This document shows, piece after piece, positions 7,226 through 63,412 of a DNA stretch of 64,000 nucleotides. This stretch comes from Pseudonocardia sp. CNS-004 (GTDB lineage: Bacteria; Actinomycetota; Actinomycetes; Mycobacteriales; Pseudonocardiaceae): contig MKJV01000069.1 in NCBI GenBank assembly GCA_001942185.1, forward strand, positions 1-64,000. Direction: 5' to 3'. A program made the translations under genes and the position numbers. The number at the start of each line of letters is the position of its first letter. Position 1 is the first letter of the stretch. The notes under the pieces are model-generated. The model did not search any database and had not been told where the DNA came from. It saw only the letters and a list, made by a program, of their open reading frames with translations.

Positions 7226-7269
7226 CGGCGCAGGCGCTCGGCACAGCGATGAGCTCCGCCTCCGCGGAT

Positions 7270-43308: not shown

Positions 43309-43346
43309 CGGGCCCGGTGCGGCCGGGGCCGGACCCACCGCACGCC

Positions 43347-43363
43347 ACCCACATCGGGTGAGG
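43347..43363. promoter_or_regulatory. TCAYCC-N5-GGRTGA site (regulon site 1)
   Basis: CCACCC-ACATC-GGGTGA, one mismatch from the consensus, 62 bases ahead of the DUF6069 gene. Confidence 0.55.
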
Positions 43364-43425
43364 TGATCGCGGACCCCGTCGTCCTAGCGTCCAGGGCACC
43401 CGAGCAGCCCGGGGACGGAGGCACC

Positions 43426-43878
43426 ATGGGTCCACCGAGTGGGCGAGCCCAGCCGCGGCTCGTCGTCGACTCCGCCCGGCTCTGGTCCGGCGGGGTGGCG
43501 ACCGCGGTCGTGGCCGCGCTCGTCGCGCTGGTCGGCGTGCTGATCGGCGCCGGCGCCCTCGACCTGGACATGGCCGTGCCGCCGCTGCTGCCGCTGGGCG
43601 GCTCGTTCGCCGTGCGATACGCGATCACCGCTGCCGTGCTGGCGCTGGCCGCCACCGGGCTGGCTCACCTGCTCGCGCTGGCGCGCCGCGGCCGCGGTCC
43701 TTCTTCGCGTGGATCGTCGGGCTCGCGACGGTCGTCGGGGTCGTCCTCCCGTTCGTCGGCGGCGGGTCGCTGGGTGGATGCGTGGCGACGGCCGTGGTGA
43801 ACCTCGTGATCGGGCTGTGCATCTTCAGCCTCATCTCGTCCGTCCTGTCGAGGACGACCCGGATCGGGTGGGACGGCT
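43426..43878 (+). CDS. DUF6069 family membrane protein (frameshifted)
   Basis: Small integral membrane protein of about 151 residues with four predicted helices: LWSGGVATAVVAALVALVGVLIG; FAVRYAITAAVLALAATGLAHLLALA; after a one-base shift near 43700, FFAWIVGLATVVGVVLPFVGGG; and CVATAVVNLVIGLCIFSLISSVLS. The opening ARLWSGGVATAVVAALVALVG is typical of DUF6069. ATG 43426 follows GGACGGAGG. The function is unknown. A regulon-type inverted repeat lies upstream. Confidence 0.72.
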
Positions 43879-43896
43879 GACCGGCGTTCCGTCCCG

Positions 43897-44469
43897 TCAG
43901 CTCTGCGACTCCTGCCGGTCCCGCACCACCCGCCGCTGAACGACCCACCCGGCCCAGGCGAGGGCGAGCCACCCGGCGGTCGCCACGACGGACTGCCACG
44001 GGAGCTGGGGGTACCGGAGGAAGCCCAGCACCTCGGGGAAGGTCCGCGCCAGACCGCTCAGTGCAAGCCCCGCGCCGCCGAGGGCGCAGGCCAGGGACAA
44101 CATCCCGTGCCGGAACCGCTGTACGGCGATGCCGACGACGAACGCGGACGCCAGCACGAACAGCACCGCGAGGACGACGTTCCCGCTGCCCTGCTCGAGC
44201 AGGCCGAACAGCTTCGCGCCGATCACACCACCGCAGATCGCACCGACGAAGAAGAGCGCGGTCCGGAACACGAAGACGGCCAGGACCCATGCCGCGATCG
44301 CCGCGGCCACGGCGATGAGGAACGCGGTCAGGACGGATGCGCCCAAGGGTTCGGCCAACAGCCACCCGAGGGCGAATCCGGACGTGACGACCGCCAGGTG
44401 CAACGAGCGGACCCCGAGGAAGCACAGCACGAGGCCGACGGCCAGGACTCCGAGCCCACTACCGTCCAT
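43897..44469 (-). CDS. DUF4203/TMEM198-like multi-pass membrane protein
   Basis: A 190-residue protein with seven hydrophobic segments, for example LGVLAVGLVLCFLGVRSLHLAVVTSGFALGWLLAE, VLTAFLIAVAAAIAAWVLAVFVFRTALFFVGAICGGVIGAKLFG and VVLAVLFVLASAFVVGIAVQ. The glycine-rich GGVIGAKLFG between helices is characteristic of the TM7S3/TMEM198-type domain. No catalytic residues are visible and the function is unknown. ATG 44469 follows GAGGAT. A TCAYCC-type inverted repeat lies 35 bases upstream. Confidence 0.75.
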   Translation of the reverse strand: MDGSGLGVLAVGLVLCFLGVRSLHLAVVTSGFALGWLLAEPLGASVLTAFLIAVAAAIAAWVLAVFVFRTALFFVGAICGGVIGAKLFGLLEQGSGNVVLAVLFVLASAFVVGIAVQRFRHGMLSLACALGGAGLALSGLARTFPEVLGFLRYPQLPWQSVVATAGWLALAWAGWVVQRRVVRDRQESQS

Positions 44470-44504
44470 CCCAGATCCTCCGACTCTCGGTGACGCCACG
44501 CGCA

Positions 44505-44521
44505 CCACCCGCGCCGGATGA
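44505..44521. promoter_or_regulatory. TCAYCC-N5-GGRTGA site (regulon site 2)
   Basis: CCACCC-GCGCC-GGATGA, one mismatch from consensus, 35 bases upstream of the DUF4203-like gene on the minus strand. Confidence 0.55.
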
Positions 44522-44553
44522 GTCCCGGGCCGCGGTGCCGGGCGTCGACGGGC

Positions 44554-45524
44554 CTACCGGGCTTCTCCCTCCGCGCGATGCGCGGGCACGGCCCGCTGCT
44601 CGCGGGTGGCCCCGAGCTCGACGAGCTCGACGTCGGCGGCTGCGGCCCGTTCGCTCGTGCGGTCCCGGTCGGCGGTGCGCCGCCGGGCGAGCCAGGACGC
44701 GAACGGGAGCTCGACGGCGAGCCCGACCAGCAGGACCCCGGTGAGGCCCGCGAGGATCGCCGGGTCGTTCCCGAACGCGATGGCGACGGCGGCGAAGGCG
44801 GGCCCCGCGTTGCGGTCGGTGCGATGAGCGCGGCGGTGGTGCGGGTCGTGGACGGGCCGCCGGCCAGTGCCCATCCCGCGAGTGCGCCGGTGACGGTGAA
44901 GACCGCCGCGGCCAGCAGGACCCTGGATCCGATCAGGTCGACGATCTGCGCCCAGCTGCCGAGCACGCCGAAGGCGAGCACGCCGACGAAGGCGAGGTTG
45001 GAGGTGCGGGCGACGGGCGGCATCCAGCTCGCCGCCGTTGCCGGGGCCCAGGCCCGCACGGCGAGCCCGACGGCGAAGGGCACCAGCTGGAGCACGGCCA
45101 CGCTGACGATCAACCTGCCGACCGGGATGCTGATGTCGTCGCCGAGGTTCGCCCAGCCCAGGAGCAGGTTCGCGGTGATCGGGAACGTCAGGCTGCCGAT
45201 GGCGGCGAGGAGGACCTGCAGCACCGAGCCGGTGACCACGTCCCCCTTCTGGATCATCGCCATCTTCGCCCCGAACGCGCCGGGCGATGACGCGACGAGG
45301 ACGAGCGCGACGAGACCGGCGGTCGACAGCGCGAACAGCAGCCCGACCGCGAGCCCGAGCAGCGGCACGACCACGAGGTTCGCGACGAGGACCAGCACGA
45401 CGAGCAGGCCGTTGCGCAGCACGCCGAGGAGGGCGGGGATGGAGGTGCGCAGCCCCGCGGAGAGCATCGTGGCCACCACGAAGGCGATGAGCACGGTGTT
45501 CAGCAGTGCGGTGAGAACCTCCAC
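44554..45524 (-). CDS. bile acid:sodium symporter (BASS/SBF) family protein (frameshifted)
   Basis: About 323 residues, nine to ten predicted helices. VEVLTALLNTVLIAFVVATMLSAGLRTSIPALLGVLRN, VANLVVVPLLGLAVGLLFAL and VASSPGAFGAKMAMIQKGDVVTGSVLQVLLAAIGSLTFPITANLLLG match the SBF core, with the discontinuous-helix PGAFGAKMAMIQKGD motif. After a one-base shift near 44820 it continues GPAFAAVAIAFGNDPAILAGLTGVLLVGLAVELPFA. GTG 45524 is the likeliest start, with TTG at 45533 a possible alternative. It transports an organic anion, identity unknown. A perfect regulon site lies 35 bases upstream, shared with the divergent sulfatase. Confidence 0.85.
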
Positions 45525-45559
45525 GGCGCTCAACCTGCCCGGCCGTCGATCCGCGGGCC

Positions 45560-45576
45560 TCATCCGGCACGGATGA
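45560..45576. promoter_or_regulatory. TCAYCC-N5-GGRTGA site (regulon site 3)
   Basis: TCATCC-GGCAC-GGATGA, an exact and perfectly symmetric match, in the gap between the BASS gene (35 bases away, minus) and the alkylsulfatase gene (plus, 140 bases away). Confidence 0.7.
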
Positions 45577-45716
45577 CCCGGCGGGCGGGCTCCCGCCGGT
45601 GCCGACGCGGCCCGGTTCACTCGTGACGGGCGAGGCCTCGAACGCGGACGCCCCATAGCGTCGCCGTCCCGACCGCCGGGAGCACCACCCGCACGTCCCG
45701 AGGAGATGTGGCAACC

Positions 45717-47604
45717 GTGTCCCAGAACCCCACTCCCCACACTGCAGCGGCCAACCGGGCCGTCCGGGAGTACCTGCCCTTCGACGACGACGCCGACTTC
45801 GCGCAGGCCGAACGCGGGCTGATCGGTTCCGAGGACCACCTGACCGTGACGAACGGGGACGGCGGCCCCGTGTGGGACCTCGGGCCGTGGGCCTTCCTCA
45901 CCGGCGAGGCGCCGGACACGGTGAACCCGAGCCTGTGGCGCCAGGCCCGGCTCAACGCGATCCACGGGCTGTTCCGCGTGGTCGACGGGGTGCACCAGGT
46001 CCGCGGCTACGACCTGTCGGTCATGTCGGTGATAGAAGGCGACACCGGCTACATCGTCGTGGATCCGCTGATCTCGACCGAAACCGCGGCGGCGGCCATG
46101 GCGCTGGTCCGCCGGCACCTCGGGGATCGGCCGGTCGTCGCGGTGATCCACACCCACAGCCACGTCGACCACTTCGGCGGTGTGCGCGGTGTGGTCGACC
46201 AGGCCGACGTCGAAGCGGGCGACGTGCGGATCGTCGTGCCGCACGGGTTCTTCGAGCACGCGATCAGCGAGAACGTGATGGCGGGCACCGCGATGTCGCG
46301 GCGGTCCAGCTACATGTACGGCAACCTGCTGCCGAAGGACCCGACGGGCACGGTCGGCGGCGGGCTGGGCAAGGGCACCTCAGCGGGGCGAATCGGTCTG
46401 CTCGCGCCCACCGACGTCGTCCGCGAGACCGGCGAGACCCTCACGATCGACGGCGTCGAGCTCGTCTTCCAGGACACCCCCGGCGCCGAGGCGCCGGCCG
46501 AGTTCTGCTTCTACCTCCCCCGGTACAAGGCCCTGTGCATGGCCGAGATCGCCACGCACACGCTGCACAACTGCTACACGCTGCGCGGCGCCGAGGTCCG
46601 CAACGCCCTGCTCTGGTCGAAGTACCTCGGCAGGCGGTCGAGCTGTTCGGCGACGAGGCCGAGGCCGTGTTCGCCAGCCACCACTGGCCGACCTGGGGCA
46701 ACGCCGAGGTGCGGGAGTACCTCATCACCCAGCGGGACCTGTACCGCTACATCCACGACGAGACCCTGCGCCTGGCCAACCACGGCTACGTGTCGGAGGA
46801 GATCGCCGAGATGGTGCGGCTGCCCGACTCGCTGGCGACGCAGTTCGCCAACCGGGGCTACTACGGCACCCTCAGCCACAACGTGAAGGCCCAGTACCAG
46901 CTCTACCTCGCTGGTTCGACGGGAACCCGGCCAACCTGGAGCCCCTTCCGCCCGTGGAAACCGCGAAGCGCCGGATCGCGTACATGGGAGGCGCCGACGC
47001 CGTGCTCGAACGCGCCAGGGCCGACTACGAGCGCGGCGAGTACCGCTGGGTCGCCCAGGTCGTCAACGACATGGTCTTCGCCGACCCCGACAACCGCGCG
47101 GCCCGGGAACTGCAGGCCGACACGCTCGAACAGCTCGGCTACCAGGCCGAGTCCGGGCCCTGGCGCAACTTCTACCTCTCGGCCGCCCAGGAACTGCGCC
47201 ACGGCGTGCGGCAGCTGCCCACACCCGTCACGGCGTCACCGGACACGATCCGCGGGATGTCGCTGGAGATGTACTTCGACTACCTCGCGATTCGCCTCAA
47301 CGGCCCGGCGGCCGCGGACGAGATGCTGCGGTTCAACGCGACGTTCACCGATCTCGACACGACCTACGACCTGGTCGTGGCCAACGGGGTGCTCAACTAC
47401 ACGAAGGGCCGCAGCGACCCCGCCGCCGACGCCACGCTGACGCTGACCCGCTCCGCGCTCGACGACGTCACGCTCGGTGTCGCGACGTTCGACGAGAAGG
47501 TCGACAAGGGCGAGATCACGATCGAGGGCGACCGGGCGGCGTTCACCCGCTTCCTCGGCCTCCTCGACAGCTTCGAGTTCTGGTTCGACATCGTCACGCC
47601 CTGA
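45717..47604 (+). CDS. alkyl/aryl-sulfatase, SDS-hydrolase (SdsA1-like) type (two frameshifts)
   Basis: MBL-fold sulfatase of about 630 residues that would hydrolyse primary alkyl sulfates such as dodecyl sulfate. DLSVMSVIEGDTGYIVVDPLISTETAAAAMALVRRHL is followed by the zinc motif VIHTHSHVDHFGGVRG; GTAMSRRSSYMYGNLLPKDPTGTVGGGLGKG and EAPAEFCFYLP are SdsA1 landmarks. Shifts near 46630 (YLG to QAVELFGDEAEAVF) and 46910 (LYLG to WFDGNPANLEPLPP) restore the reading into the C-terminal SCP2-like domain. GTG 45717 is preferred since AGGAG at 45701 is too close to GTG 45708. A DUF7144 gene follows 31 bases later. Confidence 0.92.
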
Positions 47605-47635
47605 GATCACACCCTGAGCGAGTGTGGAGGAGACC

Positions 47636-48058
47636 ATGAGTACTACCGAGCCCCAGGCGGCCGGCCGGGCCCCGGCACCGATCTCGCTCCCGTGGGCGAC
47701 CGGGTTCGCGCTGTTCGCCGGCGTGATGATGCTGGTGGTCGGGGTGTACCACGCGCTGGGCGGGATCGCGGCGATCATCCAGGACCCGCTCTACGTGACC
47801 ACGCCCGAGAACTACACCTACACGGTCGACATCACCACATGGGGCTGGATCCACCTGGTGCTCGGCGTGCTCATCGCCGTCACCGGCGGCGGGGTCCTGT
47901 CGGGCCGGGGATGGGGCCGGTTCGGCGGCATCACCATCGCGGCACTGAGCATGATCGCGAACTTCCTGTTCCTCCCGTACTACCCCGTCTGGTCCCTGGT
48001 GATGATCGCGCTCTGCGTCGCCGTCATCTGGGCGCTCGCGGTGTACGACACCGCCTGA
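47636..48058 (+). CDS. DUF7144 family membrane protein (paralogue 1)
   Basis: A 140-residue, four-helix membrane protein. Landmarks: GFALFAGVMMLVVGVYHALGGIAAI, the DITTWGWIHLVLGVLIAVTGGGVLSG signature, and MIANFLFLPYYPVWSLVMIALCVAVIWALAVYD. The role is unknown; charged or catalytic residues are lacking inside the membrane. ATG 47636 follows GGAGGA with good spacing. It lies directly behind the sulfatase and is one of four paralogues in this window (others at 59974, 62648 and 63483). Confidence 0.85.
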   Translation: MSTTEPQAAGRAPAPISLPWATGFALFAGVMMLVVGVYHALGGIAAIIQDPLYVTTPENYTYTVDITTWGWIHLVLGVLIAVTGGGVLSGRGWGRFGGITIAALSMIANFLFLPYYPVWSLVMIALCVAVIWALAVYDTA

Positions 48059-48826
48059 GCTCGGCGCCGGCCACGGCGGCGACGACCAGCAGCATGCCGA
48101 GCACGACCAGCCACGACACCACGACGAACGCCGCGCCGATGGCGCCGAAGCGCTCTGCCTGGCGACCGACCACCTGCGGCAGGTACAGCCCGGACACGGC
48201 CATGACGACGACCTGACCGAGCCCGGTCACGGCGGCGCCGGGCAGCAGCGCGCGCCATCCCACGGCGCCGCCGAGGAGCATCCACTGCACGACCCACCAC
48301 AGACCCACCGACGGAGCGAGGCGCACCAGCGCGGTGAGCAGTGGTGGGTTCGGGAGTGCCTGCATCAGCGGCGCCACCAGGACCAGCACCACGACACCCG
48401 CCACGAGCACCGCGGCACCGAGCACACCCCACCCGAACGCGAACAGCCCGGGACGGGGCAGGTCCCACGCGGCCACGAAGGTCCGTTGCAGTGTGCGGGT
48501 GAACCCGGTCACCGACATGACCAACAGCGCCAACCCGAGCGCCGTCACCTGCCCGGCGTCGACGGTGGGGGTTGCAGGAGCGGATCGAGCACCGCAGCGG
48601 CGTCCCCGCCGGGATCGGGGACCTCGAACAGCCAGGTGGCCACCGCCTGCCGGGCCGCGTCCGGAGCCGCGGCAGCGACGATGAGCAGCAGCGGGACGAG
48701 TGCGACGAACGCTTGAGCGGCCAGCGCCAGCGCGCGGTCGTAGCCGCTGATCGACGTGGTCCGCGTGACGACCCGGCCGACGAACGCCGCAGCCTGGCAC
48801 ACGGCGGCGCGCAGCCGGACGTGCAT
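48024..48826 (-). CDS. YihY/BrkB family membrane protein (frameshifted)
   Basis: About 267 residues, six predicted helices. MHVRLRAAVCQAAAFVGRVV then YDRALALAAQAFVALVPLLLIVAAAAP is the YihY opening. After a one-base shift near 48570 it continues GLALLVMSVTGFTRTLQRTFVAAWDLP, the conserved YihY loop, and IGAAFVVVSWLVVLGMLLVVAAVAGAELRR. Function unresolved; formerly called RNase BN in error. ATG 48826 is 3 bases after the AI-2E family gene stop, so the two form an operon. The 3' end overlaps the convergent DUF7144 gene by 35 bases. Confidence 0.85.
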
Positions 48827-48829
48827 CCC

Positions 48830-49981
48830 TCAGCCGGCGGACGGGCTGCCCTTGACGGGCTCCGGATCCGGGGATGCGCGACGGGGCGGGGGGACCGGGA
48901 CCGGGGTCTCGGGCGCCCCCATCGTCACCAGCGAGGTCATCCACCGCGTGTGCGGGTCGATGTCGAGCAGCAGCGCCTTGGTGAGCAGGGTCAGCGGGAT
49001 GGCCAGCAGCGCGCCGAGCGGCCCGATGATCCAGGCCCAGATCACCAGGGACAGGAAGGTCAGGGTCAGCGACATGTCCACGGCGTCCCCGACGAACTTC
49101 GGCTGGATCACCGTCTGGATGATGAAGTTGATGACGACGTAGACGACGATCACCAGCAGCATGAGCCGCGGACCGCCCTCGAGCAGCGCGAGCAGGGCGG
49201 GTGGCACCAGGCCGATGATGAAGCCGATGTTCGGGATGTAGTTGGTGATGAACGCCAGCAGGCCCCAGAGCACCGCCAGCGGCACGCCCATCCACCAGAG
49301 CGCCACCCCGTCGAGCACCGCGACGATCAGACCGAAGACCGTGGAGACCAGCAGGTAGCTGCGGGTGCCGTTGGCGAAGGACGAGAAGGCCACCGCGACG
49401 TCAGGGCGGGCCCCGCCGACCGCGCGCATCCGGGCCGGGAAACTCGCGGCGTCCAGCCCCATGAACAGCAGCACGGCGAGGATGAACACGAGGTTGGAGA
49501 ACGCGCCTGCCAGGCCGAGGAGCAGCCCGGCCAGCAGGCCTGCCAGCGCTCCGAAATCGACCTGGTCGAGCGCGGTGCGCACCTGCTCCGTCCCGACGCC
49601 CAGCCCGTTCAACCACGCCACGAGGTCCTGGACCAGTCCTTCGAACCGGTCCTGGTAGGTGGGCAGCAGCGTCGCCAGCTGCGCGACCGAGAGCGCCAGC
49701 GACGCGGCGAGCCCCAGCACGATCGCGAACACGGTCAGCAGCGTCACCGTGACGGCCAGCCAGCCCGGGGCGCCCGCGCGGCGCAGCCGGCCCATCAGCG
49801 GGTGCACGGCGACGGTGAGCATCAGCGCGAGGAAGACCGGCCCGAGGATGTCGGCGAACGCGCGCAGCCCGGCGATGACGACGACCATGGCGGCGAGCGC
49901 GAGCAGCACGATCAAGCCGCGCGGCAGCGGCCAGCGCGGTGTCGGTGGTGCGGCCGCTGTCGCCTCGGTCGAACTGGTCAC
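48830..49981 (-). CDS. AI-2E family transporter
   Basis: A 383-residue membrane protein with about eight helices. GLIVLLALAAMVVVIAGLRAFADILGPVFLALMLTVAVHPL opens it; the central amphipathic stretch LLPTYQDRFEGLVQDLVAWLNGLG and WGLLAFITNYIPNIGFIIGLVPPALLALLEGG (the conserved NYIPNIG motif) and LGALLAIPLTLLTKALL are family signatures. Some members export autoinducer-2, others exchange Na+ for H+; which applies is unknown. GTG 49981 is chosen because the hydrophobic core starts soon after. A regulon site lies 34 bases upstream. Confidence 0.9.
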   Translation of the reverse strand: MTSSTEATAAAPPTPRWPLPRGLIVLLALAAMVVVIAGLRAFADILGPVFLALMLTVAVHPLMGRLRRAGAPGWLAVTVTLLTVFAIVLGLAASLALSVAQLATLLPTYQDRFEGLVQDLVAWLNGLGVGTEQVRTALDQVDFGALAGLLAGLLLGLAGAFSNLVFILAVLLFMGLDAASFPARMRAVGGARPDVAVAFSSFANGTRSYLLVSTVFGLIVAVLDGVALWWMGVPLAVLWGLLAFITNYIPNIGFIIGLVPPALLALLEGGPRLMLLVIVVYVVINFIIQTVIQPKFVGDAVDMSLTLTFLSLVIWAWIIGPLGALLAIPLTLLTKALLLDIDPHTRWMTSLVTMGAPETPVPVPPPRRASPDPEPVKGSPSAG

Positions 49982-50015
49982 GACAGCATGGTGTTGGTCG
50001 GGGCGGTCAGGCACG

Positions 50016-50032
50016 TCACCCCCGCGGGATGA
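50016..50032. promoter_or_regulatory. TCAYCC-N5-GGRTGA site (regulon site 4)
   Basis: TCACCC-CCGCG-GGATGA, exact to consensus, between the AI-2E gene (34 bases away, minus) and the first SulP gene (160 bases away, plus). Confidence 0.65.
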
Positions 50033-50192
50033 GGTACCAGCAGGTTCGGCAAAGCCACGTTGCGCTACCCCGGGTTCAGGAACGTGGCTTTCCCGAACCC
50101 CCCGGGCCCCCTCACCTGCCACGGAGGATGCCCCGCCCCGCTCGATCTCGTCAGCCTCGGGCGAACAGCCGAAGCGGCGGACGGAGGCCGGC

Positions 50193-52220: not shown

Positions 52221-52238
52221 CGCGGGTTCCTCCGGGGA

Positions 52239-52655
52239 TCAGGCGACCGTGGCGGCGGCGTAGGCGGCGTCGACGTCCGCAGCGGGGATGCGCACGTGCA
52301 GCGCGACCTCGCCGCCTGCCTCACCGACCGCGGCACTGACCCGGCGGGCCCAGGTGTGCTCGTAGACGGCGACGAGCGCCGAGGAGCCGGGTGGCATGCC
52401 GTCGCGGATCGTCTCGAGGTCGTCGGCCGACAGGAGCGCATCCCCGCGCGCGGTCAGCCGGGCGAGCCCGAACCGGTCGAGGTCCTCGTCGATCTCGACG
52501 ACGCGGACGTCACCGTCGTCCTGCGCCGCCACGAAGAGCAGGTCGAGGACCGTGATCGTGCCCTGGTCCACGAGTTCGGCCACCCCCTCGACCACGGTGG
52601 CGGGGACCTGCGGTTCGGGAAAGGTCAGGACGAGGATCTCGACGGGTCCTGTCAT
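52239..52655 (-). CDS. DUF6325 family protein
   Basis: A 138-residue soluble protein: MTGPVEILVLTFPEPQVPATVVEGVAELVDQGTITVLDLLFVAAQDDGDVRVVEIDED, then a long helical middle and GMPPGSSALVAVYEHTWARRVSAAVGEAGGEVALHVRIPAADVDAAY. The GSSALVAVYEHTWA stretch is typical of DUF6325, which is often found next to SHOCT proteins and assumed to be stress-related. No catalytic motif is visible. A regulon-type site lies 78 bases upstream. Confidence 0.88.
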   Translation of the reverse strand: MTGPVEILVLTFPEPQVPATVVEGVAELVDQGTITVLDLLFVAAQDDGDVRVVEIDEDLDRFGLARLTARGDALLSADDLETIRDGMPPGSSALVAVYEHTWARRVSAAVGEAGGEVALHVRIPAADVDAAYAAATVA

Positions 52656-52733
52656 CGGCCGGCTCCTCGGGTGTGACGGCTCGGGTGTGACGGCATCCGG
52701 CCGGACGGTAGGCGCGCCGGGCGGCCACCGGCC

Positions 52734-52750
52734 TCACCCATCGCGGGCGA
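52734..52750. promoter_or_regulatory. TCAYCC-N5-GGRTGA site (regulon site 5)
   Basis: TCACCC-ATCGC-GGGCGA, one mismatch, upstream of the DUF6325-SHOCT operon (minus strand, 78 bases). Confidence 0.5.
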
Positions 52751-52776
52751 TCCGCGGTCGCGGACCTCGGCGGTCG

Positions 52777-54497: not shown

Positions 54498-54570
54498 GGC
54501 CAGGCGGGCGACGAGCGGTCCCGGTCGTTGCGCCGTCCCATCCGCACATTCCCCCTTTGCGTCGCGCGCC

Positions 54571-55113: not shown

Positions 55114-55129
55114 CCGCTGTCATCCACGA

Positions 55130-55146
55130 CGGGTGACGCGCGAGCG
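55130..55146. promoter_or_regulatory. TCAYCC-N5-GGRTGA site (regulon site 6)
   Basis: TCATCC-ACGAC-GGGTGA, exact to consensus, 52 bases ahead of the DUF1269 gene. Confidence 0.65.
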
Positions 55147-55198
55147 AACGCCGCCGCGCACGCTCACGGTGCCGGACCCACACACCGAAGGAGACGAC

Positions 55199-55687
55199 AT
55201 GGCCACCCTCAGCGTCTGGAAGTTCGACAGCGAGACGGGCGCCGACGAGGCCGTCCGCACGCTGGAGAACCTCGCGAAGCAAGAGTTGATCAAGATCCAC
55301 GACGCGGCGACGGTGTCGTGGAAAGTCGACGCCAAACGGCCGAAGACACGGCAGCTGAACAACCTCGCCGGCGCCGGAGCACTCGGCGGCATGTTCTGGG
55401 GCCTGCTGTTCGGCCTGATCTTCTTCGTGCCCCTGCTCGGCGCCGCGATCGGCGCCGCCACCGGCGCGATCGGCGGCGCCCTCACCGACGTCGGCATCGA
55501 CGACGACTTCATCAAACAAACCCGCGACCAGGTCACCCCCGGCACCTCCGCCCTGTTCCTCCTGTCCTCCGACGCCGTGATCGACAAGGTCCAGGAAGCC
55601 TTCGCCGGTCAACACAAGCCGCAGCTGATCTCGACCAACCTGTCCACGGAACAGGAAGAGGCACTGCGCACGACCTTCTCCGAGTGA
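55199..55687 (+). CDS. DUF1269 domain-containing membrane-associated protein
   Basis: A 162-residue protein. MATLSVWKFDSETGADEAVRTLENLAKQELIKIHDAATVSW opens it. A hydrophobic glycine-rich hairpin follows (GAGALGGMFWGLLFGLIFFVPLLGAAIGAATGAIGGAL), then DDFIKQTRDQVTPGTSALFLLSSDAVIDKV, all diagnostic of DUF1269. These proteins are linked to general stress responses in other bacteria, but their activity is unknown. ATG 55199 follows GAAGGAG. An exact regulon site lies upstream. Confidence 0.93.
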   Translation: MATLSVWKFDSETGADEAVRTLENLAKQELIKIHDAATVSWKVDAKRPKTRQLNNLAGAGALGGMFWGLLFGLIFFVPLLGAAIGAATGAIGGALTDVGIDDDFIKQTRDQVTPGTSALFLLSSDAVIDKVQEAFAGQHKPQLISTNLSTEQEEALRTTFSE

Positions 55688-55750
55688 GATTCGGACCCCG
55701 AAGGCACCGGATCGCGCCGCGAACCCGCCCGATGACGGCGGAACGACGAC

Positions 55751-56277: not shown

Positions 56278-56311
56278 GCGCCGCACGCCGACGGGTCCGG
56301 ACCGAACGAGC

Positions 56312-56926
56312 TCAGGCGCTGGATCCCGCCGGGTTCGCCGCGGCCTGCTCCGGGGCAGGGCTGTGGGCGCGCCGCGCCATCAGACCCTGGATCACGAACG
56401 CCACGCCGACGACCACGAGCACGACCCCGAACAGCCAGGTCAGGACGACGAGGCTGGTGCCCGGGTACACCAGCACGACGGCACCGCCGATCATCGACAG
56501 GACGCCGGCGGCGATCCCCCAGCCGCGCGCCGCACCCCGTTCCGAGCTCACCGCGTCCACGACCCCGGAGATGCCCTGCACCACCCACAGCGCCCCGATC
56601 ACCAGGCCGAGGACCAGCGCGGTCTGCAGCGTCGCCCGCAGGCACAGCAACCCGACCAGGATCGACAACGCCCCGAGCAGCACCGACAGCACGCGACCAC
56701 CGGGTTCGCGGCCGGCCGCGAACGCCGAGACCAGCTGCAACACGCCGGCCACGAGCAGCTGCACCGCGAACAACCACGCGATGACCACGATCGTCGCGCC
56801 CGGCCACGCGAGGACGAGCACGCCGATGAGGATGCTCAGCACGCCGGAGCCGATCACGAGGGCCGGTGAGTCCGCCACCCGTGTGAGGCCCTGCGCCGCC
56901 GTGCCGTCCGGTCCGTGTCGGCTCAT
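56312..56926 (-). CDS. HdeD family acid-resistance protein
   Basis: A 204-residue protein with six predicted helices in three repeated pairs: ALVIGSGVLSILIGVLVLAWPGATIVVIAWLFAVQLLVAGVLQLV, VLSVLLGALSILVGLLCLRATLQTALVLGLVIGALWVVQGISGV and IAAGVLSMIGGAVVLVYPGTSLVVLTWLFGVVLVVVGVAFVIQGL. The repeated GVLSxxxGxxxLxxPG motif is the HdeD/DUF308 signature. It is associated with acid and other stress in enterobacteria; the role here is inferred. ATG 56926 follows GAGGAC. Convergent with the K+ channel gene. Confidence 0.92.
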   Translation of the reverse strand: MSRHGPDGTAAQGLTRVADSPALVIGSGVLSILIGVLVLAWPGATIVVIAWLFAVQLLVAGVLQLVSAFAAGREPGGRVLSVLLGALSILVGLLCLRATLQTALVLGLVIGALWVVQGISGVVDAVSSERGAARGWGIAAGVLSMIGGAVVLVYPGTSLVVLTWLFGVVLVVVGVAFVIQGLMARRAHSPAPEQAAANPAGSSA

Positions 56927-57028
56927 CCCGTCCTCCTCGTTCCGCACCGTCTCGCTCGTGGCCGTCGTCGCACGGAGCATCGACGTCCGCGACCAGGCCC
57001 ACCTCCCCCGAACCAGGTGACACGGCTG

Positions 57029-59669
57029 CTACCTCTGGCGCATGCCGATCGCGAGCAGCCCGTTCTCGTGTGCCGCGAGCACTGCCAGCCGCCTGCTGCT
57101 GACCCCGAGCTTCGTGTAGATCGACCGCACGTGGGTCTTGATCGTGTTCACCGAGACCGTGAGGTCGTCGGCGATCTCGTCCAGTGACAACATCGACGGG
57201 AGCAGTCCGAGGACGGTGAGCTCCCGTTCGCTGAGCACCGCCTGTCGTTGCAGCGCATCACGCGCCCCGCGGTGAGCGCACGCTCGGCGAACCCGTCGGA
57301 GGCGCCGGAGGTGCCGAGGTGGTGTACGAGCAGCTCGCGGACCCCGGGCCCGGTGTGCAGGAACGGCCGGAGCGCTTCGAGCGGTTCGGCGATGCCCAGG
57401 GAGCTCTGCAGCGCCCTGCGGGCGGCGGGCCGGTCCCCGTGGGCGATGGCGAGGGCGGCTTCCAGCAACCACGCATCGACGGGGGTGTGCGCGAGAACGG
57501 GCCGGACCTCCTCGTCCAGAACCGGTCGGAGTACCGCTCGCGCGTGCTCGTGGCGGCCGCCGGCAGCGTCCGTCCACGCCTGCATCACCAGGAGCTCCGC
57601 GTTGGCGCCGGTGCGGTCGGCGAGCCATCCCCGCACCGTTCGCGCCGCCGTGGAGTGGCCGAGGAGCAGCGCTGCGCGGAACTCCAGCACGGCGAGTGCG
57701 GCGACCTGCTGCGGATCGGCCGGACGGTCGCCGAACTCCGTCCGCGTCTGTTGCAGCTCGGTCAGGCCTGCTGCCCGGCCCCCGCGGTCGAAGACGGCCG
57801 CGCCGTGGATGCTGCGCAGCATGCACCACAGCTGTGGCGACGACGCCGTGGCGCTCAGCCCCAGCCCCTCGGTCGCCAGGCGCTCGGCGGCAACGGTTTC
57901 CGTGCGCATGAGCGCCGAGTAGGCCAGCATCGCCGTCGCCGCGCCGGCCCAGGACGTGTCCGTCCAACCGTGCTCGGCTGCTGCCGCACGGACCTCGTCG
58001 CTCATGGCCCGCATCGTGCGGGTGTCACCCCCGGAGCCCGCGACGACCGCCAGTAGCGCGAGGTTCTGCATCGTCAGGTAGTCGAAGCCCTGGTCACGGC
58101 TGATGTGCAGTGCGGTTTCGAACTCGGCGCGTGCGCCGCCGAGGTCGTCCTGGCCGAGCCGCGCCGTACCCCGGCTCATGTGCGCGAGGGCCTCCAGCTC
58201 GGGCTCGACGGGCAGCTCACGAATCTCCTTCACGACCGAGGCGACGACCGGATCGCCAGCCGGTGCCGATCCGATCGGCGTATCCGCAGCAGCGCTGAAC
58301 TGCTCGGTCACCGCGCGGAGCACCGCGAGGCCGGCTTGATCGTGGGCGGGCCAGGATCGCCGCGCGCGGCGCAGGTCCTCGCGGGCCGTGACGAGTTCAC
58401 CGGCCTCGAGGTGGGTCAGCGCCGAGGTCAGCGCGAGCCAGGGATCGGATCCGATGGTTTGTGCACCCGCGATGCTCAGGGCGCGTCGCAGCGGCCCGTG
58501 GTTCCCGGCGACGATCAACGGAACGGCGAAGCGGTGCAGCAGGTCCGTCAGCAGGTCGAGATCCTGTCCCTGCGTCGCGTGCTCGAGCGCCTGGACCGGT
58601 TCCGGCCTGCCGGCCCACCACCTGGCGGCCGCGCGGTGCAGCTCGGCGGCCTGTTCCACGCCCTGTCTGCGCAGGTCGGCGCGCAGGTAGGTCTGCAGGA
58701 GCTGCTGGATGCGGTAGGAGTCGCGGTGCGGCCCGCCGGAGGACAGCAGGGCGGAGTCGTGCTCGATCCGGTCGAGCAGGCGGCCCGCGTCCTGCCGGCC
58801 GGTCAGCGCGGCGGCCAGACCGGTCGGGATCGGCTCGCTGATGCTGATCAGCCGCAGGAACTCCTGCACGTCGTCGGGAAAGCCGGACAGGACCTCCCCC
58901 ACGAGGTAGTCCGCGACACTGCGCTCGTCGCCCGAGAACCGATCGAGGAAGCCGTCCGGGTCCGGGGACGCCGCCGCGCCGGACACGGCCAGGCGCAGGC
59001 CGGCCGCCCATCCCCCGGTCTGCTGGTGCAGAAGATCGACCCCGGCGGAGGTGAGTTGCAGTCCCGACCTCTCCAGGAGCGCTTCCGTCTCCGCCCGGGA
59101 GAATCGCAGGTGGGATGCCCGAACCTCGCGGAGCCGACCCGCGAGGCGTAGGCGGGGGAGCGCCAACGGGGGGTCGGCGCGGCTGGACAGGACGAGCTGG
59201 ACGCCGGGGCAGCGGGCGCGGGTGAGGATCTGCACGCCGTGCAGTGCCTGGGAGTCGGTCAGCTCGTGGACGTCGTCGAGTACCAGCCGGATCGGTCGGG
59301 GCAGGGCCTCGAGGGCGTCGACGAGCTCGGCGAGGAACTCCGGCTGGGCGTCGGCTCGCCAGACCCACGGCTGGTGCAGTCGGCTGGTGCTGGGAACCTG
59401 CGTGCTCGCCACGACCGAGGCGACGACCGAGGACCAGAGCCTCCTCGGGTCGTTGTCGTCGGGGTCGAGGCTGACCCAGGCGGTGTCCGCCGTGGTGTCG
59501 GTCCGCGACCAGTCCGCCAGCAGCAACGTCTTGCCGTACCCGGCCGCGCGCAGACGAGCACGACCTCGCAGGCGAGGGCCGCCTCGAGGCTCGTGCGCAA
59601 TTCCGTCCGGACGACGAATTCCGGCGGAATCGATGGAATTGAGATCTTGACGTTCGGGACGAACGCCAC
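57029..59669 (-). CDS. MalT-like LuxR-family ATP-dependent regulator (two frameshifts)
   Basis: About 880 residues. VKISIPSIPPEFVVRTELRTSLEAAL is the MalT-type opening. A one-base shift near 59550 restores the Walker A motif AGYGKTLLLADW, then TAWVSLDPDDNDPRRLWSSVVAS and LVLDDVHELTDSQAL (Walker B). The middle is winged-helix plus helical repeats. A second shift near 57250 restores the C-terminal LuxR domain LSERELTVLGLLPSMLSLDEIADDLTVSVNTIKTHVRSIYTKLGVSSR. GTG 59669 has GGGAGG at good spacing; GTG 59678 does not. It is the only transcription regulator in the 43.3-64 kb island and thus a candidate for its operator, though MalT itself binds direct repeats. Confidence 0.9.
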
Positions 59670-59973
59670 GGCGATCACCTCCCGATAGGCGCCCCCGCGC
59701 CGTGCGATCCCCCCGTTAGCGACCCGAGCTGATCTTCCCCATCAGTCGGACCGAAGCCGGATTTCCGGCAGCACGGGATCGTCACGATAACGGCGCGCCG
59801 GCGGCGGGTGTCCACCGGGCAGAACCACTACTACCTGCTGCGACAGGCCCGGCGCCCGCCCGAACGCGCGGCTGCACCAGGTCCGTTCGGCGGAACGCGG
59901 CGGCCGCCGTAATCGCGCAGCGTGACCTTCGGGCAAAATGTGCGGATACAATTGTCGCCGAGCGCGAACCCCA
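59670..59973. other. 304-base intergenic region upstream of the MalT-like regulator
   Basis: No convincing gene on either strand. It must hold the promoter of the regulator; I find no copy of the TCAYCC-N5-GGRTGA site in it. A locally AT-rich patch (AAAATGTGCGGATACAATTG) lies near 59935-59955, toward the 3' end of the DUF7144 gene. Confidence 0.4.
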
Positions 59974-60438
59974 TCATCGTTTCGCCGCCTCACGGTCGAA
60001 CGAGCACAACGCCCAGATCACGACGACGTCGAACGCGATGATCAACAAGGCCCACACGGGGTAGTAGGGGACGAACAGGAAGTTCGCGATCATGCTCAGC
60101 ACCGCGAGCGTGATCCCGACGATCCGGGCCCACAGCTGCCCCGCGAGCACACCACAGCCCGCGGCGAGGACGAGGATCCCGGCGAGCAGGTGGATCCAAC
60201 CCCAGGTCGTCACATCGACGGAGAACATGTACTCGCTGCCGACGACGTAGATCTCGTTCCGGAAGAGCGCGACCAGACCCGCGATGGCGTGGAAGATCCC
60301 GATGACGATCATGAGGGAGCCCGCGAACACGGCGAACCCGGCCGCCCAGGGCGAGACCGCATCGCGCCCGGCCGTCTCGTGGTAGCCGGGCCGGCTGTCG
60401 GGCCGGCTGTCGGGCGCGGTCTCGTGCGATGTGGACAT
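59974..60438 (-). CDS. DUF7144 family membrane protein (paralogue 2)
   Basis: A 154-residue, four-helix protein with a hydrophilic 30-residue head (SHETAPDSRPDSRPGYHETAG). Family signatures: WAAGFAVFAGSLMIVIGIFHAIAGLVALFRNEIYVV, VDVTTWGWIHLLAGILVLAAGCGVLAGQLWARIVGITLAVLSMIANFLFVPYYPVWALLIIAFDVVVIWALCSFD. It is the closest of the four to the family pattern. ATG 60438 has GGAGAAGG upstream. A perfect regulon site lies 114 bases upstream. Confidence 0.88.
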   Translation of the reverse strand: MSTSHETAPDSRPDSRPGYHETAGRDAVSPWAAGFAVFAGSLMIVIGIFHAIAGLVALFRNEIYVVGSEYMFSVDVTTWGWIHLLAGILVLAAGCGVLAGQLWARIVGITLAVLSMIANFLFVPYYPVWALLIIAFDVVVIWALCSFDREAAKR

Positions 60439-60472
60439 GGGCCTTCTCCGGGGTGGTTCAACGGTGTCGACA

Positions 60473-60697
60473 TCAGCTGTGTCGACTCTGCGGTGCCGGC
60501 CGGTCGCCCCGGGTATCCGGCCCTGCGAGCGTCGCGATGTGCGGCGGCGGTTTCGTCACCCGGCACGGGTGAGCCGGGACCACGCCCCGCCGCGTGGATC
60601 GCTCCCGCCTACCGAGCAGCTCGAGCTCGAGCCGCTCCATCGCGAGCAGGAACACACAGATCAGGAGGGGGACCAGGACCACGACCAGGACCACCAC
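60473..60697 (-). CDS. small single-pass membrane protein
   Basis: Reading of 74 codons from GTG 60697, which follows AGGAGGT at ideal spacing. VVLVVVLVPLLICVFLLAMERLELELLG is one hydrophobic helix followed by an acidic/basic amphipathic segment, as in small actinobacterial membrane proteins of unknown role. The last 35 residues (PAHPCRVTKPPPH…) look non-native and overlap a perfect regulon palindrome, so the true protein probably ends near LLGRRERS and one base may be missing. Confidence 0.6.
   Translation of the reverse strand: MVVLVVVLVPLLICVFLLAMERLELELLGRRERSTRRGVVPAHPCRVTKPPPHIATLAGPDTRGDRPAPQSRHS
60553..60569. promoter_or_regulatory. TCAYCC-N5-GGRTGA site (regulon site 7)
   Basis: TCACCC-GGCAC-GGGTGA, exact and perfectly symmetric, 114 bases ahead of DUF7144 paralogue 2. 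It falls inside the doubtful 3' part of the small membrane protein reading. Confidence 0.65.
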
Positions 60698-60809
60698 GAC
60701 ACCTCCTGCGAGAGATCGGGCCGGCGACACCGGATGAGGTAGGACCGTTCACCAGGTGCCGGGAGCCCGCATCACCCTTCGGGTAGGAACCGAGCCACCC
60801 CCGCTCGAC

Positions 60810-61098
60810 TCAGGCGTCGAACCACACGTCGACGAGGTCGATCGCGGTCAGACCCTGATCCGCCGCGATCCGTTCGAGTGCTGACGCGAGTCGCAGAGCC
60901 AGGTCGACAGCGACGTCGGACAGGCCATCGGATCCGTGCTCGGCGAGCACGGAGGAAGCGACGCTGCGCGCCGCCGATTCCTTCTGATCCTCGTCCTGAT
61001 CCTCGTCGCGGTCGGCCAGCACGCCTCGAAGCAACTCGTAGGCCCGGGCGCGACGCGAGATCGACGGAATCGTCGCGGCCCGTCCTGTCCTCGCCCAC
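60810..61098 (-). CDS. small uncharacterised protein, paralogue of 61309-61572 (probable frameshift)
   Basis: About 95 residues. The C-terminal portion RARAYELLRGVLADRDEDQDEDQKE, then DVAVDLALRLASALERIAADQGLTAIDLVDVWFDA aligns along its length with the divergent neighbour (…RRLLEAMRAVLSDD…ALSLALAEALDRIARHQELDTADLAEVWFAD). No in-frame start lies near. GTG 61098, with GGAGG 8 bases upstream, gives VGEDRTGRDDSVDLAS, and one lost base near 61040 would join it to ARAYELL. The family is unknown to me. Confidence 0.55.
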
Positions 61099-61308
61099 GC
61101 GTCACTCCTCCGGGGCCTGACCGGATGTACGGCTCCAGCCGTGTGATGATCCACGCTGCAGCCTCCGGCTTCGTCACGGACAGTACCCACGAATGGAGCT
61201 GTCCGTCCCTGCGGGGCACCCGGTGCGGCGCGTCCGGGCGGGCTACAGTGGCCGACTTCGTCCGGTCGAGGAGCAACGCCGCTCACCATCGACTTGAGGA
61301 GCACGAGC

Positions 61309-61572
61309 GTGAGTCATCCACCTGAAGGGGCGGGCACCCAGCGGAGACTCCTCGAGGCCATGCGCGCGGTCCTGTCCGATGACCACAACTACGAACGAGG
61401 GCTGGCCGCCCTGCGAGCGATGGTCGACCGAATCGCACGCGAGGACGGCGAGGACGAGCTCTGCGACTTCACCGTGGCGCTCTCGCTCGCACTGGCAGAG
61501 GCGCTCGACCGGATCGCCCGCCACCAGGAGCTCGACACGGCCGATCTCGCGGAGGTCTGGTTCGCGGACTGA
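61309..61572 (+). CDS. small uncharacterised acidic protein
   Basis: An 87-residue, probably all-helical soluble protein: SHPPEGAGTQRRLLEAMRAVLSDDHNYERGLAALRAMVDRIAREDGEDELCDFTVALSLALAEALDRIARHQELDTADLAEVWFAD. GTG 61309 follows GAGGAG by 7 bases. I do not recognise the family. The C-terminal D-L-x-x-V-W-F motif is shared with the divergent paralogue at 60810-61098 and may be an interaction motif. A -10-like TACAGT lies in the 210-base gap between the pair. Confidence 0.7.
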   Translation: MSHPPEGAGTQRRLLEAMRAVLSDDHNYERGLAALRAMVDRIAREDGEDELCDFTVALSLALAEALDRIARHQELDTADLAEVWFAD

Positions 61573-61590
61573 CGACCCGACCGGCTCGGG

Positions 61591-61800
61591 TCAGCCGTCC
61601 GGCAGCCGTTGCAGGGAGACCACCTGCAGCCCCATGGCGTTGCAGAGCGCGAGCAGATCACGCAGCTCGGCCGGCTCCGACAGCTCCCCGAACATGATCG
61701 TCTGTGGCGGGACGGGACGCACGTCCATCGTGCGGAACGCACCTCGGGCACGCTCGGAGAGGCGACCGTTGACCCGTACCTCGTACCGCGCACGATCCAT
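61591..61800 (-). CDS. small uncharacterised protein of the RYExRVxGRLSExAR type (copy 1)
   Basis: A 69-residue protein: MDRARYEVRVNGRLSERARGAFRTMDVRPVPPQTIMFGELSEPAELRDLLALCNAMGLQVVSLQRLPDG. The pattern suggests a small alpha/beta fold (strand, helix, strand-strand, helix, strand). Clear paralogue of 63071-63271. Conserved points are RYE-RV-GRL, the DMRV/TMDVRP strand, E-T-I-G, a helix, then LG(I/L)xVVS. The family is unnamed to my knowledge. ATG 61800 follows GAGGAG. A near-consensus regulon site lies 73 bases upstream. Confidence 0.75.
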   Translation of the reverse strand: MDRARYEVRVNGRLSERARGAFRTMDVRPVPPQTIMFGELSEPAELRDLLALCNAMGLQVVSLQRLPDG

Positions 61801-61873
61801 CGTCGACCTCCTCTCCTCTTCGCCCACCGGCCGGGCAGGACCGTCAGCCTCGCCCACCCGAGCTCACCCGGCA

Positions 61874-61890
61874 TCGCCCCGCGCGGATGA
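61874..61890. promoter_or_regulatory. TCAYCC-N5-GGRTGA site (regulon site 8)
   Basis: TCGCCC-CGCGC-GGATGA, one mismatch, 73 bases upstream of the small-protein gene at 61800 (minus strand). An extra TCACCC half-site lies at 61864. Confidence 0.5.
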
Positions 61891-61934
61891 GCGCAGGCAC
61901 GGGCGAGGAGGACGCGGCCCGCCACCCTCCGGGT

Positions 61935-62456
61935 TCATCCGAGGTGGGGCTCGCTCGCCCCGGCGAGTGCGTGGTGGATCCACCGGCGGGCCCGCGGCTC
62001 CAGGGCCAGCACGGTGACGACGGCCGGATCGAACCAGGCGGCGTCCGACGTCGCGTACCGGTTGGGGCGGGGACGTCCCCACTCGGCCCAGCCGTGGAAG
62101 CACACCACGAACTCCTGGAATCCCTCGCCGTCCCCGACCGTCTCGACGGCGCGTGCCGGGTCGGTGAACAACCCGACCAGCCCGGTGATCCGCACCCGCA
62201 ACCCGGCCTCCCCCGCGGTCATGCGCACCGCGGCCTCGATCGCGCTCTCCCCGACGTCGACCCGGCCACCGGGCAGCTCCCAGGCGGCACAGCCACAGCG
62301 TTTGACCAAGAGCAGCCGCCCCTGCTCCTCGCGGACCGCGACGAACACCGACGGCGTCACGACGGCGGACACCGGGGTCTCCGGCTCGGGAACGTCCACG
62401 CTCCGCAGCGCCCTGGGGCGGGGTCGCACACCCCCGGTCTCCCCTCGCGTCGTCAT
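61935..62456 (-). CDS. Nudix-fold protein with a degenerate Nudix box
   Basis: A 173-residue protein. SVFVAVREEQGRLLLVKRCGCAAWELPGGRVDVGESAIEAAVRMTAGEAGLRVRITGLVGLF is the Nudix core. In the box G-x5-E-x7-R-E-U-x-E-E-x-G-U the sequence reads GRVDVGE…RMTAGEAGL: the first Glu after Arg is Met, and the next Glu is Gly, so two of the metal/catalytic acidic residues are missing. The fold and hydrophobic positions remain, suggesting a binding or weakly active protein. ATG 62456 follows GGAGTG. It lies between two small stress-type genes. Confidence 0.82.
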   Translation of the reverse strand: MTTRGETGGVRPRPRALRSVDVPEPETPVSAVVTPSVFVAVREEQGRLLLVKRCGCAAWELPGGRVDVGESAIEAAVRMTAGEAGLRVRITGLVGLFTDPARAVETVGDGEGFQEFVVCFHGWAEWGRPRPNRYATSDAAWFDPAVVTVLALEPRARRWIHHALAGASEPHLG

Positions 62457-62569
62457 GTCGCCCACTCCGCCTCCCCCGGACCGCCATGCCGGTCGACGGC
62501 GACGGCGCGTCGAGCAGCACCCCCCGGGCTGCACCCGACGCACTCTGCGTGCAGCGGCCCGCCCTGCCA

Positions 62570-62586
62570 TCACCCCGCACGGGTGA
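62570..62586. promoter_or_regulatory. TCAYCC-N5-GGRTGA site (regulon site 9)
   Basis: TCACCC-CGCAC-GGGTGA, exact and perfectly symmetric, 61 bases ahead of DUF7144 paralogue 3 and 113 bases from the divergent Nudix gene. Confidence 0.7.
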
Positions 62587-62647
62587 GGTCATCCCACGAG
62601 CTCGGCGCCACCGTCGATCGGGTCACCGTCGGCCGGAGGAGGAATCC

Positions 62648-63105
62648 ATGACCGAGTCGCCCGACGCGAGCAGCAGCCCGGGCATCACCGGTTGGGCGGG
62701 CTGGGTCGCCTTCGCGGGAACCATGCTGATCGCGCTCGGCAGCTTCCAGGCGATCGAAGGGCTCGTCGCCCTGTTCCACAACAGCCTCTACCTGGTCGGA
62801 CCCGAAGGATTCGTGGTGAACCTCGACTACGACGCGTGGGCTGGACGCACCTCGTCGTCGGCGTCGTCGCGATCGCCGTCGGGTTCGGACTCTTCACCGG
62901 CAACCTGATCGCCCGCGTGGCCGGCACTGCGATCGCGATGATCAGCGCGACCCTCAACCTCGTCTTCCTCTCCGCCTACCCGGTGTGGTCGACGGTCACC
63001 ATCGCCCTGGACGTGATCGTGATCTACGCCATCGTGGTGCACGGTCGCGAGCTCGAGAGGCACGACGTCGCTACTCCGGGACCGGGCGCGCCGACACCAC
63101 GGTGA
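62648..63105 (+). CDS. DUF7144 family membrane protein (paralogue 3, frameshifted)
   Basis: About 152 residues. WAGWVAFAGTMLIALGSFQAIEGLVALFHNSLYLVGPEGFVVNLDYDAWG; then, after a one-base shift near 62840, WTHLVVGVVAIAVGFGLFTGNLIARVAGTAIAMISATLNLVFLSAYPVWSTVTIALDVIVIYAIVVHG. The signature TTWGWIHL is changed to YDAWGWTHL-like, and the IWAL end to IYAI, so this is the most divergent paralogue. ATG 62648 follows GGAGGAGG. The 3' end overlaps the convergent small gene at 63071. Confidence 0.85.
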
Positions 63106-63271
63106 TCCCGAGCGTCTGGAGCTGGACGATGATGCCGTGCAGGTGCGACTCGTCGACCACGTCACCGTCGATCACCGTCTCCGGTGCGATCTCGGTCACC
63201 CGCATGTCGCCGATGGCGGTCCTGGCCTCCTGCGTCAGCCGACCCTCCACCCGGAACTCGTAGCGCGTCAT
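63071..63271 (-). CDS. small uncharacterised protein of the RYExRVxGRLSExAR type (copy 2)
   Basis: A 66-residue protein: MTRYEFRVEGRLTQEARTAIGDMRVTEIAPETVIDGDVVDESHLHGIIVQLQTLGITVVSARPVPE. It aligns end to end with the 61591-61800 product. ATG 63271 is the common start; GAGATGAGG lies upstream. A regulon-type site is 76 bases upstream, nearly the same distance as for copy 1. The function is unknown. Confidence 0.78.
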   Translation of the reverse strand: MTRYEFRVEGRLTQEARTAIGDMRVTEIAPETVIDGDVVDESHLHGIIVQLQTLGITVVSARPVPE

Positions 63272-63347
63272 CGTCGTCGGCCTCATCTCGTGTCGAGGCG
63301 GTGGTCGAGCCTTCGGCACGGTGACGGTCCCGGGACGGCAGCGGCAT

Positions 63348-63364
63348 CACCCGTGGGGGACGAA
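63348..63364. promoter_or_regulatory. TCAYCC-N5-GGRTGA site (regulon site 10)
   Basis: TCACCC-GTGGG-GGACGA, one mismatch, 76 bases upstream of the small-protein gene at 63271 (minus strand). Confidence 0.45.
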
Positions 63365-63395
63365 CCCCCTGACCGCCCGTCGCCCGCCGTACCGG

Positions 63396-63412
63396 TCACC
63401 TCGGCGAGGTGA
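63396..63412. promoter_or_regulatory. TCAYCC-N5-GGRTGA-like site (regulon site 11)
   Basis: TCACCT-CGGCG-AGGTGA, a perfect dyad with one compensated change in each arm, 70 bases ahead of DUF7144 paralogue 4. Confidence 0.55.

Follow-up and report, generated by a model that had tools for sequence, protein, structure and literature searches.

Inverted repeats in the genome of Pseudonocardia sp. CNS-004 are very probably the sites of a MalT-type LAL activator. They were found in a stretch of 64,000 nucleotides (contig MKJV01000069.1, positions 1 to 64,000; hereafter, the window), in which eleven 17-bp dyads of the pattern TCAYCC-N5-GGRTGA, referred to as boxes, all lie after base 43,000. Their reader is most likely the LAL gene product of 57029-59678, its relatives next to a sister island elsewhere in this genome, or both. 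The bases for this reading are the restriction of the sites to islands, their association with LAL genes, the fixed spacer, the promoter geometry and the recurrence in other genomes, all observed here, together with, by analogy, the motif and regulator class of Actinoplanes. The regulon is already described in kind, and the present case is another example in another family.

The window dyads comprise five exact sites, five sites with one mismatch and one site with a compensated change (TCACCT-N5-AGGTGA at 63396). The pattern scan thus confirmed all eleven dyads, and the same split, listed by a first-pass annotation made from the letters alone; seven of its eleven start positions were right, while those given as 43347, 55130, 60553 and 63348 were off by 2, 10, 3 and 1 bases, respectively. 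It had not seen the motif in promoter gaps of the first 42 kb, and no site with one mismatch or fewer was detected before position 43,000. When up to two mismatches were allowed, the window gave 20 matches, whereas 100 shuffles gave 10.65 ± 3.0 (17 at most).

The claim that the dyads are not random was borne out at the genome scale. In the assembly (9.2 Mb, 156 contigs, 83% complete), the pattern occurs 11 times exactly and 80 times with one mismatch or fewer, and the reversed-pattern control gave 0 and 15, respectively. All 11 exact sites fall in two clusters of about 20 kb each: one in the window (5 sites) and another, the sister island, at C68:481970-502465 (6 sites). Of the 80 sites with one mismatch or fewer, 24 are in these two main islands, and weaker one-mismatch clusters were seen, among the matches listed, at C63:119140-126868 (5 sites) and C66:64950-73555 (4 sites). 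The spacer is specific: among spacers N0-N12, those other than N5 gave no exact site in the two main islands, compared with 11 for N5.

A MalT-like LuxR/LAL gene is located within or beside each of the two main islands. The window LAL was aptly named by the first-pass annotation, as 57029-59669, as the regulator to be tested; it is MalT-like, and its class is associated with boxes across genomes. Two further LAL genes, also in pieces, lie beside the sister island at C68:475180-479872, and the second shares 85% identity with the window LAL over 33 residues of its helix-turn-helix (HTH) end. An intact relative of 882 aa occurs in Pseudonocardia kunmingensis (82% identical in the best segment; the scan finds only close relatives). 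This protein combines the NTPase, the MalT-like TPR region and a C-terminal GerE HTH in one chain: its residues 14-392 match MalT in the PDB (8bob, E=2.8e-28), GerE is above the Pfam cut-off, and TPR_MalT, AAA_16, AAA_22 and nSTAND are below their cut-offs. By sequence comparison, the HTH recognition region resembles that of E. coli MalT; the TPR similarity is too weak to place ligand residues.

The association of boxes with LAL genes was examined in other genomes, where the best 8, 3 and 2 candidates per genome were scored in the family, phylum and class sets, respectively; since only these were scored, the LAL counts are lower bounds. In the family, at least 30 of 120 genomes (own included) carry a LAL at E<=1e-60. 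The other 29 contain 97 exact sites; 37 of these have a LAL no more than 10 kb away, compared with 0.33 expected, and such a site is present in 23 of the 29. The density of exact sites is 0.43 per Mb in these 29 genomes and 0.26 per Mb in the 90 without a LAL match. The genome-wide count is only a weak marker of LAL, because sites also occur singly in genomes without a LAL match; it is the clustering near a LAL that marks it. Eight of the 90 genomes, with many sites and no LAL match, were inspected. In one (G017), a weaker LAL (7e-61) lies on a contig that also has a site, some 2 kb away; another (G111) has a distant LAL (2.7e-37) without a near site, and three identical sites; in a third (G006), a single repeated sequence or its complement, on different contigs, accounts for six of the eight sites (seven of the eight rows). 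In the remaining ones, the sites looked scattered. Seven of the eight exact sites of G006 were also noted to be the same 17-mer or its complement, mostly near contig ends, like a repeated element.

Thirty stretches around family LALs (24 with a near site and 6 without) and the P. kunmingensis locus make up a set of 31 related loci (607 kb). They contain 39 exact and 76 one-mismatch sites, the reversed control giving 0 and 2. An equal density inside coding regions had been set beforehand as a finding that would speak against a regulon; 99 of the 115 sites are intergenic, where the intergenic share of bases is 17%. Other spacers (0-12) gave at most 2 exact sites each, against 39 for N5. Because most of these loci were selected for exact sites, the informative results are those on the intergenic share, the spacer and the −10 hexamer. 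The predictions that the motif behaves as a regulon-type operator and recurs in other genomes both held: it is promoter-associated, and boxes stand before the same gene families elsewhere.

Many boxes stand at a set distance from a −10-like hexamer. Around 33 own-genome sites (66 flanks), TANNNT was counted seven times at offsets 0-59: five times at 23, once at 22 and once at 13. Among 139 sites (own main islands plus the 31 loci), a gene start is found on one side only for 66, on both sides for 50 and on neither for 23. For the one-sided sites, [TC]ANNNT is present at offset 22/23 in 29 of 66 gene-side flanks versus 8 of 66 opposite flanks, and in other families in 13 of 32 versus 2 of 32. 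Of the 11 window boxes, 8 have a −10-like hexamer at 22-23 in the gene direction. When the hexamer is taken as −12 to −7, this geometry implies a putative transcription start site (TSS) about 34-35 nt past the box, as in Actinoplanes.

The arrangement also extends to other actinobacterial families. A LAL was found in at least 21 of 393 other class genomes (E<=1e-75) and in at least 1 of 295 other phylum genomes (G313; E<=1e-100). An exact site is present in 16 of the 24 LAL loci of the class genomes, the loci being taken as returned. Thirteen other-family loci of 11-20 kb (12 of the 24 plus that of G313) were examined: 11 have a site with one mismatch or fewer and 9 an exact site, and together they contain 38 exact and 18 one-mismatch sites versus 0 in the controls, with 50 of the 56 intergenic. 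Some of these sites lie upstream of DUF7144, DUF1269, SfLAP, SulP, 66-aa and LAL genes. Exact sites were found in families f17, f87, f88 and f110, and only one-mismatch sites in f72; one locus of f88, which may be Micromonosporaceae, has a single one-mismatch site. Among the 13, the f104 and f2 loci have no site with one mismatch or fewer.

The first-pass annotation had called the regulon undescribed, which is incorrect, because the motif, the spacer and the link to the regulator were published by Droste et al. 2020 (PMC7567727). According to the excerpts of that report consulted here, a 51-gene island of Actinoplanes sp. SE50/110 has the motif 5'-TCATCC-5nt-GGATGA-3' in front of 17 TSSs, at a distance of 34.4 ± 1.0 nt, where it overlaps the −35 region; the motif was also seen in four other Micromonosporaceae. 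The activator of the island is MalT (ACSP50_3915): its deletion lowered 42 of the 51 genes and its overexpression raised 39. Transcription is reported to be higher on maltose than on glucose, and the transcript to rise over growth; no maltose-metabolism gene was found to be affected, and the authors were unable to name a common pathway. The same source gives GGA(T/G)GA as the core hexamer of the MalT box. In the open-licence literature, we found no report of the motif beyond this paper, which does not prove that none exists; nor did any paper there combine at least two of DUF7144, DUF6325, DUF1269 and Pseudonocardia.

The two systems share, as far as the excerpts go, the inverted hexamers, the 5-nt spacer, an island that contains a MalT-like LuxR/LAL gene and a second, tandem LAL, numerous genes for membrane or unknown proteins, a gene order rearranged between species, and an arginine deiminase gene near a weaker site cluster (here, C66). 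The −35 overlap and the TSS distance would also be alike if the TSSs predicted here are right. Here, too, a palindrome, with Y/R at one position per arm, stands upstream of many genes of one island. The present case differs in belonging to another family (closest named relative, Pseudonocardia) and in having two main islands plus two weaker site clusters.

The island regulator is similar to E. coli MalT in protein architecture, sequence and core hexamer. It differs in that the boxes here form a fixed inverted pair with N5; moreover, the E. coli protein controls maltose genes, whereas the present islands showed no genes for maltose uptake. The DosR regulon likewise has a GerE-type HTH and islands with stress-like genes, but the island regulator here is a large NTPase, not a response regulator. 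The DosR operator differs from the boxes, and a DosR box was rejected on comparison with the window sites, as the first-pass annotation had held. TagR, reported to be of the TetR type, offered no lead.

In the mechanism that we propose, a MalT-type activator would bind the half-sites GGRTGA, each of which resembles the MalT-box core. The two half-sites, inverted and separated by 5 bp, would take the position of the −35 element, with a weak −10 hexamer 22-23 nt further on, and the bound activator would recruit RNA polymerase, replacing a good −35. For Pseudonocardia sp. CNS-004, we infer from the sequence both direct LAL binding and the activation of the boxed genes. The trigger may be a sugar or another ligand. 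The output, which is the least certain step, might be a late-growth or reserve-carbon programme combined with an envelope-stress programme. A reserve-carbon or late-growth signal would fit GH15 and G6PD beside the boxes and, by analogy, the increase on maltose and over growth in Actinoplanes. The HdeD-like, catalase-like, DyP-like and channel genes would fit a stress role, and the "stress or dormancy programme" first suggested is no more than plausible.

Several observations weigh against this explanation. The window LAL gene is broken into separate reading frames by frameshifts in the assembly. Of the 97 exact sites in the LAL-bearing family genomes, 60 are more than 10 kb from any LAL found; 6 of the 29 genomes have no exact site within 20 kb of a LAL; and 155 exact sites occur in 611 Mb of family genomes without a LAL match. 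In other families, the strict TANNNT was found in only 2 of 112 flanks at offset 22 and in none at 23, and the boxes at 44505, 60556 and 61874 in the window have no −10-like hexamer at 22/23.

Another regulator, such as a NarL/DosR-type response regulator, a GntR or a TetR protein, might read the boxes, with the LAL as a mere neighbour. The survey of regulators in this genome was confined to LAL, and MalT binding to the motif is an assumption in the Actinoplanes study as well, judging from its excerpts (PMC7567727). We nevertheless regard this possibility as unlikely, given the association of boxes with LAL across genomes and families, the MalT-like half-site and the MalT dependence in Actinoplanes (PMC7567727, same excerpts). 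Being inverted repeats, the dyads could also be taken for RNA hairpins acting as terminators or attenuators; the fixed spacer, the place before gene starts and the fixed −10 hexamer argue otherwise. The arms, moreover, do not covary: among 88 exact sites, 13 have the non-pairing combination C-A and 12 have T-G, and the variable Y/R positions show no significant association between the arms (Fisher p=0.12), as expected if a protein reads them. The hairpin explanation was rejected on this ground and is very improbable. Chance clustering in GC-rich DNA, for which the isolated exact sites in genomes without a LAL match might speak, is more improbable still: it is refuted by the restriction of all exact sites to two islands with none in the reversed control, by the proximity to LAL, by the counts in the related loci and by the spacer specificity.

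Targets in the 31 loci were defined as genes that have a box (one mismatch or fewer) no more than 250 bp upstream. The boxed shares were 12/17 for DUF1269, 14/26 for DUF7144, 6/9 for GH15, 9/17 for the 66-aa family, 6/11 for AI-2E, 3/3 for HdeD-like, 4/5 for SHOCT/PLDc_N, 3/3 for SfLAP, 3/6 for SulP, 3/7 for ion channel, 2/2 for DUF389 and 12/45 for LAL genes, compared with 42/373 for other genes. These shares are descriptive, because the families were picked for being often behind a box, and two of the family names rest on one representative each. In two relatives, ANTAR-domain proteins are encoded directly downstream of boxes, at L080:4584-5348 (also with GAF) and L082:4312-5073, hinting at antitermination control inside the regulon.

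Table 1. Boxes, regulator gene and associated domain in the window (offset, that of the −10-like hexamer from the box)
Feature	Position	Strand	Remarks
MalT-type box, one mismatch	43345..43361	+	toward DUF6069-like gene 43363/43426-43800 (weak DUF6069 match, below cut-off); TAGCGT at offset 23
Box, one mismatch	44505..44521	-	toward membrane protein 43897-44469; no −10-like hexamer at 22/23
SBF (BASS) domain stretch of target gene	44979..45479	-	PF01758, E=1.5e-11, residues 261-427 of frame 44328-46259
Box, exact	45560..45576	-	toward minus-strand SBF/BASS gene; CAGGTT at offset 22
Box, exact	50016..50032	-	toward AI-2E transporter 48830-49909 (PF01594); CACCAT at offset 22
Box, one mismatch	52734..52750	-	toward DUF6325 gene 52239-52655 (PF19850); TACCGT at offset 23
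Box, exact	55120..55136	+	toward DUF1269 gene 55199-55687 (PF06897); CACGCT at offset 22
MalT-like LAL regulator (STAND-type NTPase, TPR, GerE HTH)	57029..59678	-	GerE E=8.5e-13, weak TPR_MalT; candidate box reader
Box, exact	60556..60572	-	upstream of DUF7144 gene 59974-60438; no [TC]ANNNT at 22/23
Box, one mismatch	61874..61890	-	toward 69-aa small protein 61591-61800; no [TC]ANNNT at 22/23
Box, exact	62570..62586	.	between divergent DUF7144 (62648, +) and Nudix (61935-62465, -); CACCGT, CAGAGT at offset 22, one per side
Box, one mismatch	63347..63363	-	toward 66-aa small protein 63071-63271; CACCGT at offset 23
Compensated box	63396..63412	+	toward DUF7144 gene 63483-63953 (PF23636); CACCGT at offset 22

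Of the window boxes (Table 1), the first-pass annotation placed ten in intergenic DNA. The eleventh, at 45560, had been assigned to a doubtful gene tail; this tail is probably spurious, and since an SBF/BASS frame runs on the minus strand there, this site is promoter-like too. The box at 50016 has CACGTT at offset 23 on its other side as well, where no gene start is called. The DUF7144 gene at 59974-60438 lies ahead of the LAL gene, both being on the same strand. The box-to-start distances, for which the first-pass annotation gave clusters of 34-35 and 52-78 bases, are 35 for 43897-44469 and 61-78 for most other genes; those of AI-2E (106) and of DUF7144 at 59974 (117) did not agree with it. 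The BASS gene, whose start is not called, is outside this list. Starts and distances are approximate, because the gene calls come from a simple codon-usage gene finder.

By Pfam, the window island and the DNA beside it encode Flavodoxin_2, DUF6069 (below cut-off), SBF/BASS, alkyl sulfatase pieces, BrkB, AI-2E, SulP pieces, DUF7144 (four genes), DUF6325, DUF389, DUF1269, an ion channel, DUF308 (HdeD-like), LAL and Nudix. The sister island encodes DUF2252, Nudix, DAGK, AI-2E, GH15, G6PD, MFS, an ion channel, YccF, catalase-like, DyP-like, DUF1269, DUF7144 and an FGGY kinase. DUF7144 has six matches in the genome (five genes, one of them split), all within the two main islands. The C63 cluster has a second DUF2252/GH15/G6PD set, plus CLC, M48 and MarR genes, on a contig without a LAL match at E<=1e-60; the C66 cluster has arginine deiminase, DUF308 and PCuAC. 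The C63 set is about 80% identical to that of C68. In the window (42-64 kb), C68 and C63, several genes appear split by frameshifts (LAL, alkyl sulfatase, SulP, DUF389, DUF7144, AI-2E and G6PD), which may reflect assembly error or decay.

Two families of small proteins were also observed. The RYE family consists of 66-69-aa proteins, at 61591-61800 (-) and 63071-63271 (-) in the window and at L064:6743-6943 and 7091-7300 in a related locus; it has two subfamilies about 35% identical and is often near a LAL. The window copies have no Pfam match at E<=0.1, and two relatives of 67-68 aa are encoded in the sister island. The second family (70-75 aa) is represented at 60810-61022 (-), 61360-61572 (+) and C68:476694-476921 (-); its members are up to 75% identical between the islands, and Pfam gave only sub-threshold hints.

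Taken jointly, these results can tentatively be read as follows. A MalT-box regulon present in at least five actinobacterial families, and detached from maltose use, would command a recurrent set of mostly uncharacterised membrane proteins (DUF7144, DUF1269, the Pfam-less 66-aa family, AI-2E, SulP, SfLAP and HdeD) together with GH15 and G6PD. An envelope-protection and redox programme would be triggered by a signal of the sugar type, which might stem from the breakdown of reserves; the LAL would often control its own gene, and satellite islands would join by gaining boxes. We consider this wider picture possible rather than probable.

Reports of the motif should not present it as undescribed. 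What is new is its reach into Pseudonocardiaceae and further families, and the recurrence of DUF7144, DUF1269, the 66-aa family, AI-2E, GH15, SulP and HdeD among the targets. In this genome, about two dozen boxes at promoters, and several protein families without a known function, are here tied to an experimentally supported type of regulator. The arrangement extends beyond the family of its first publication, and a short target list is now at hand for asking what the DUF proteins respond to.

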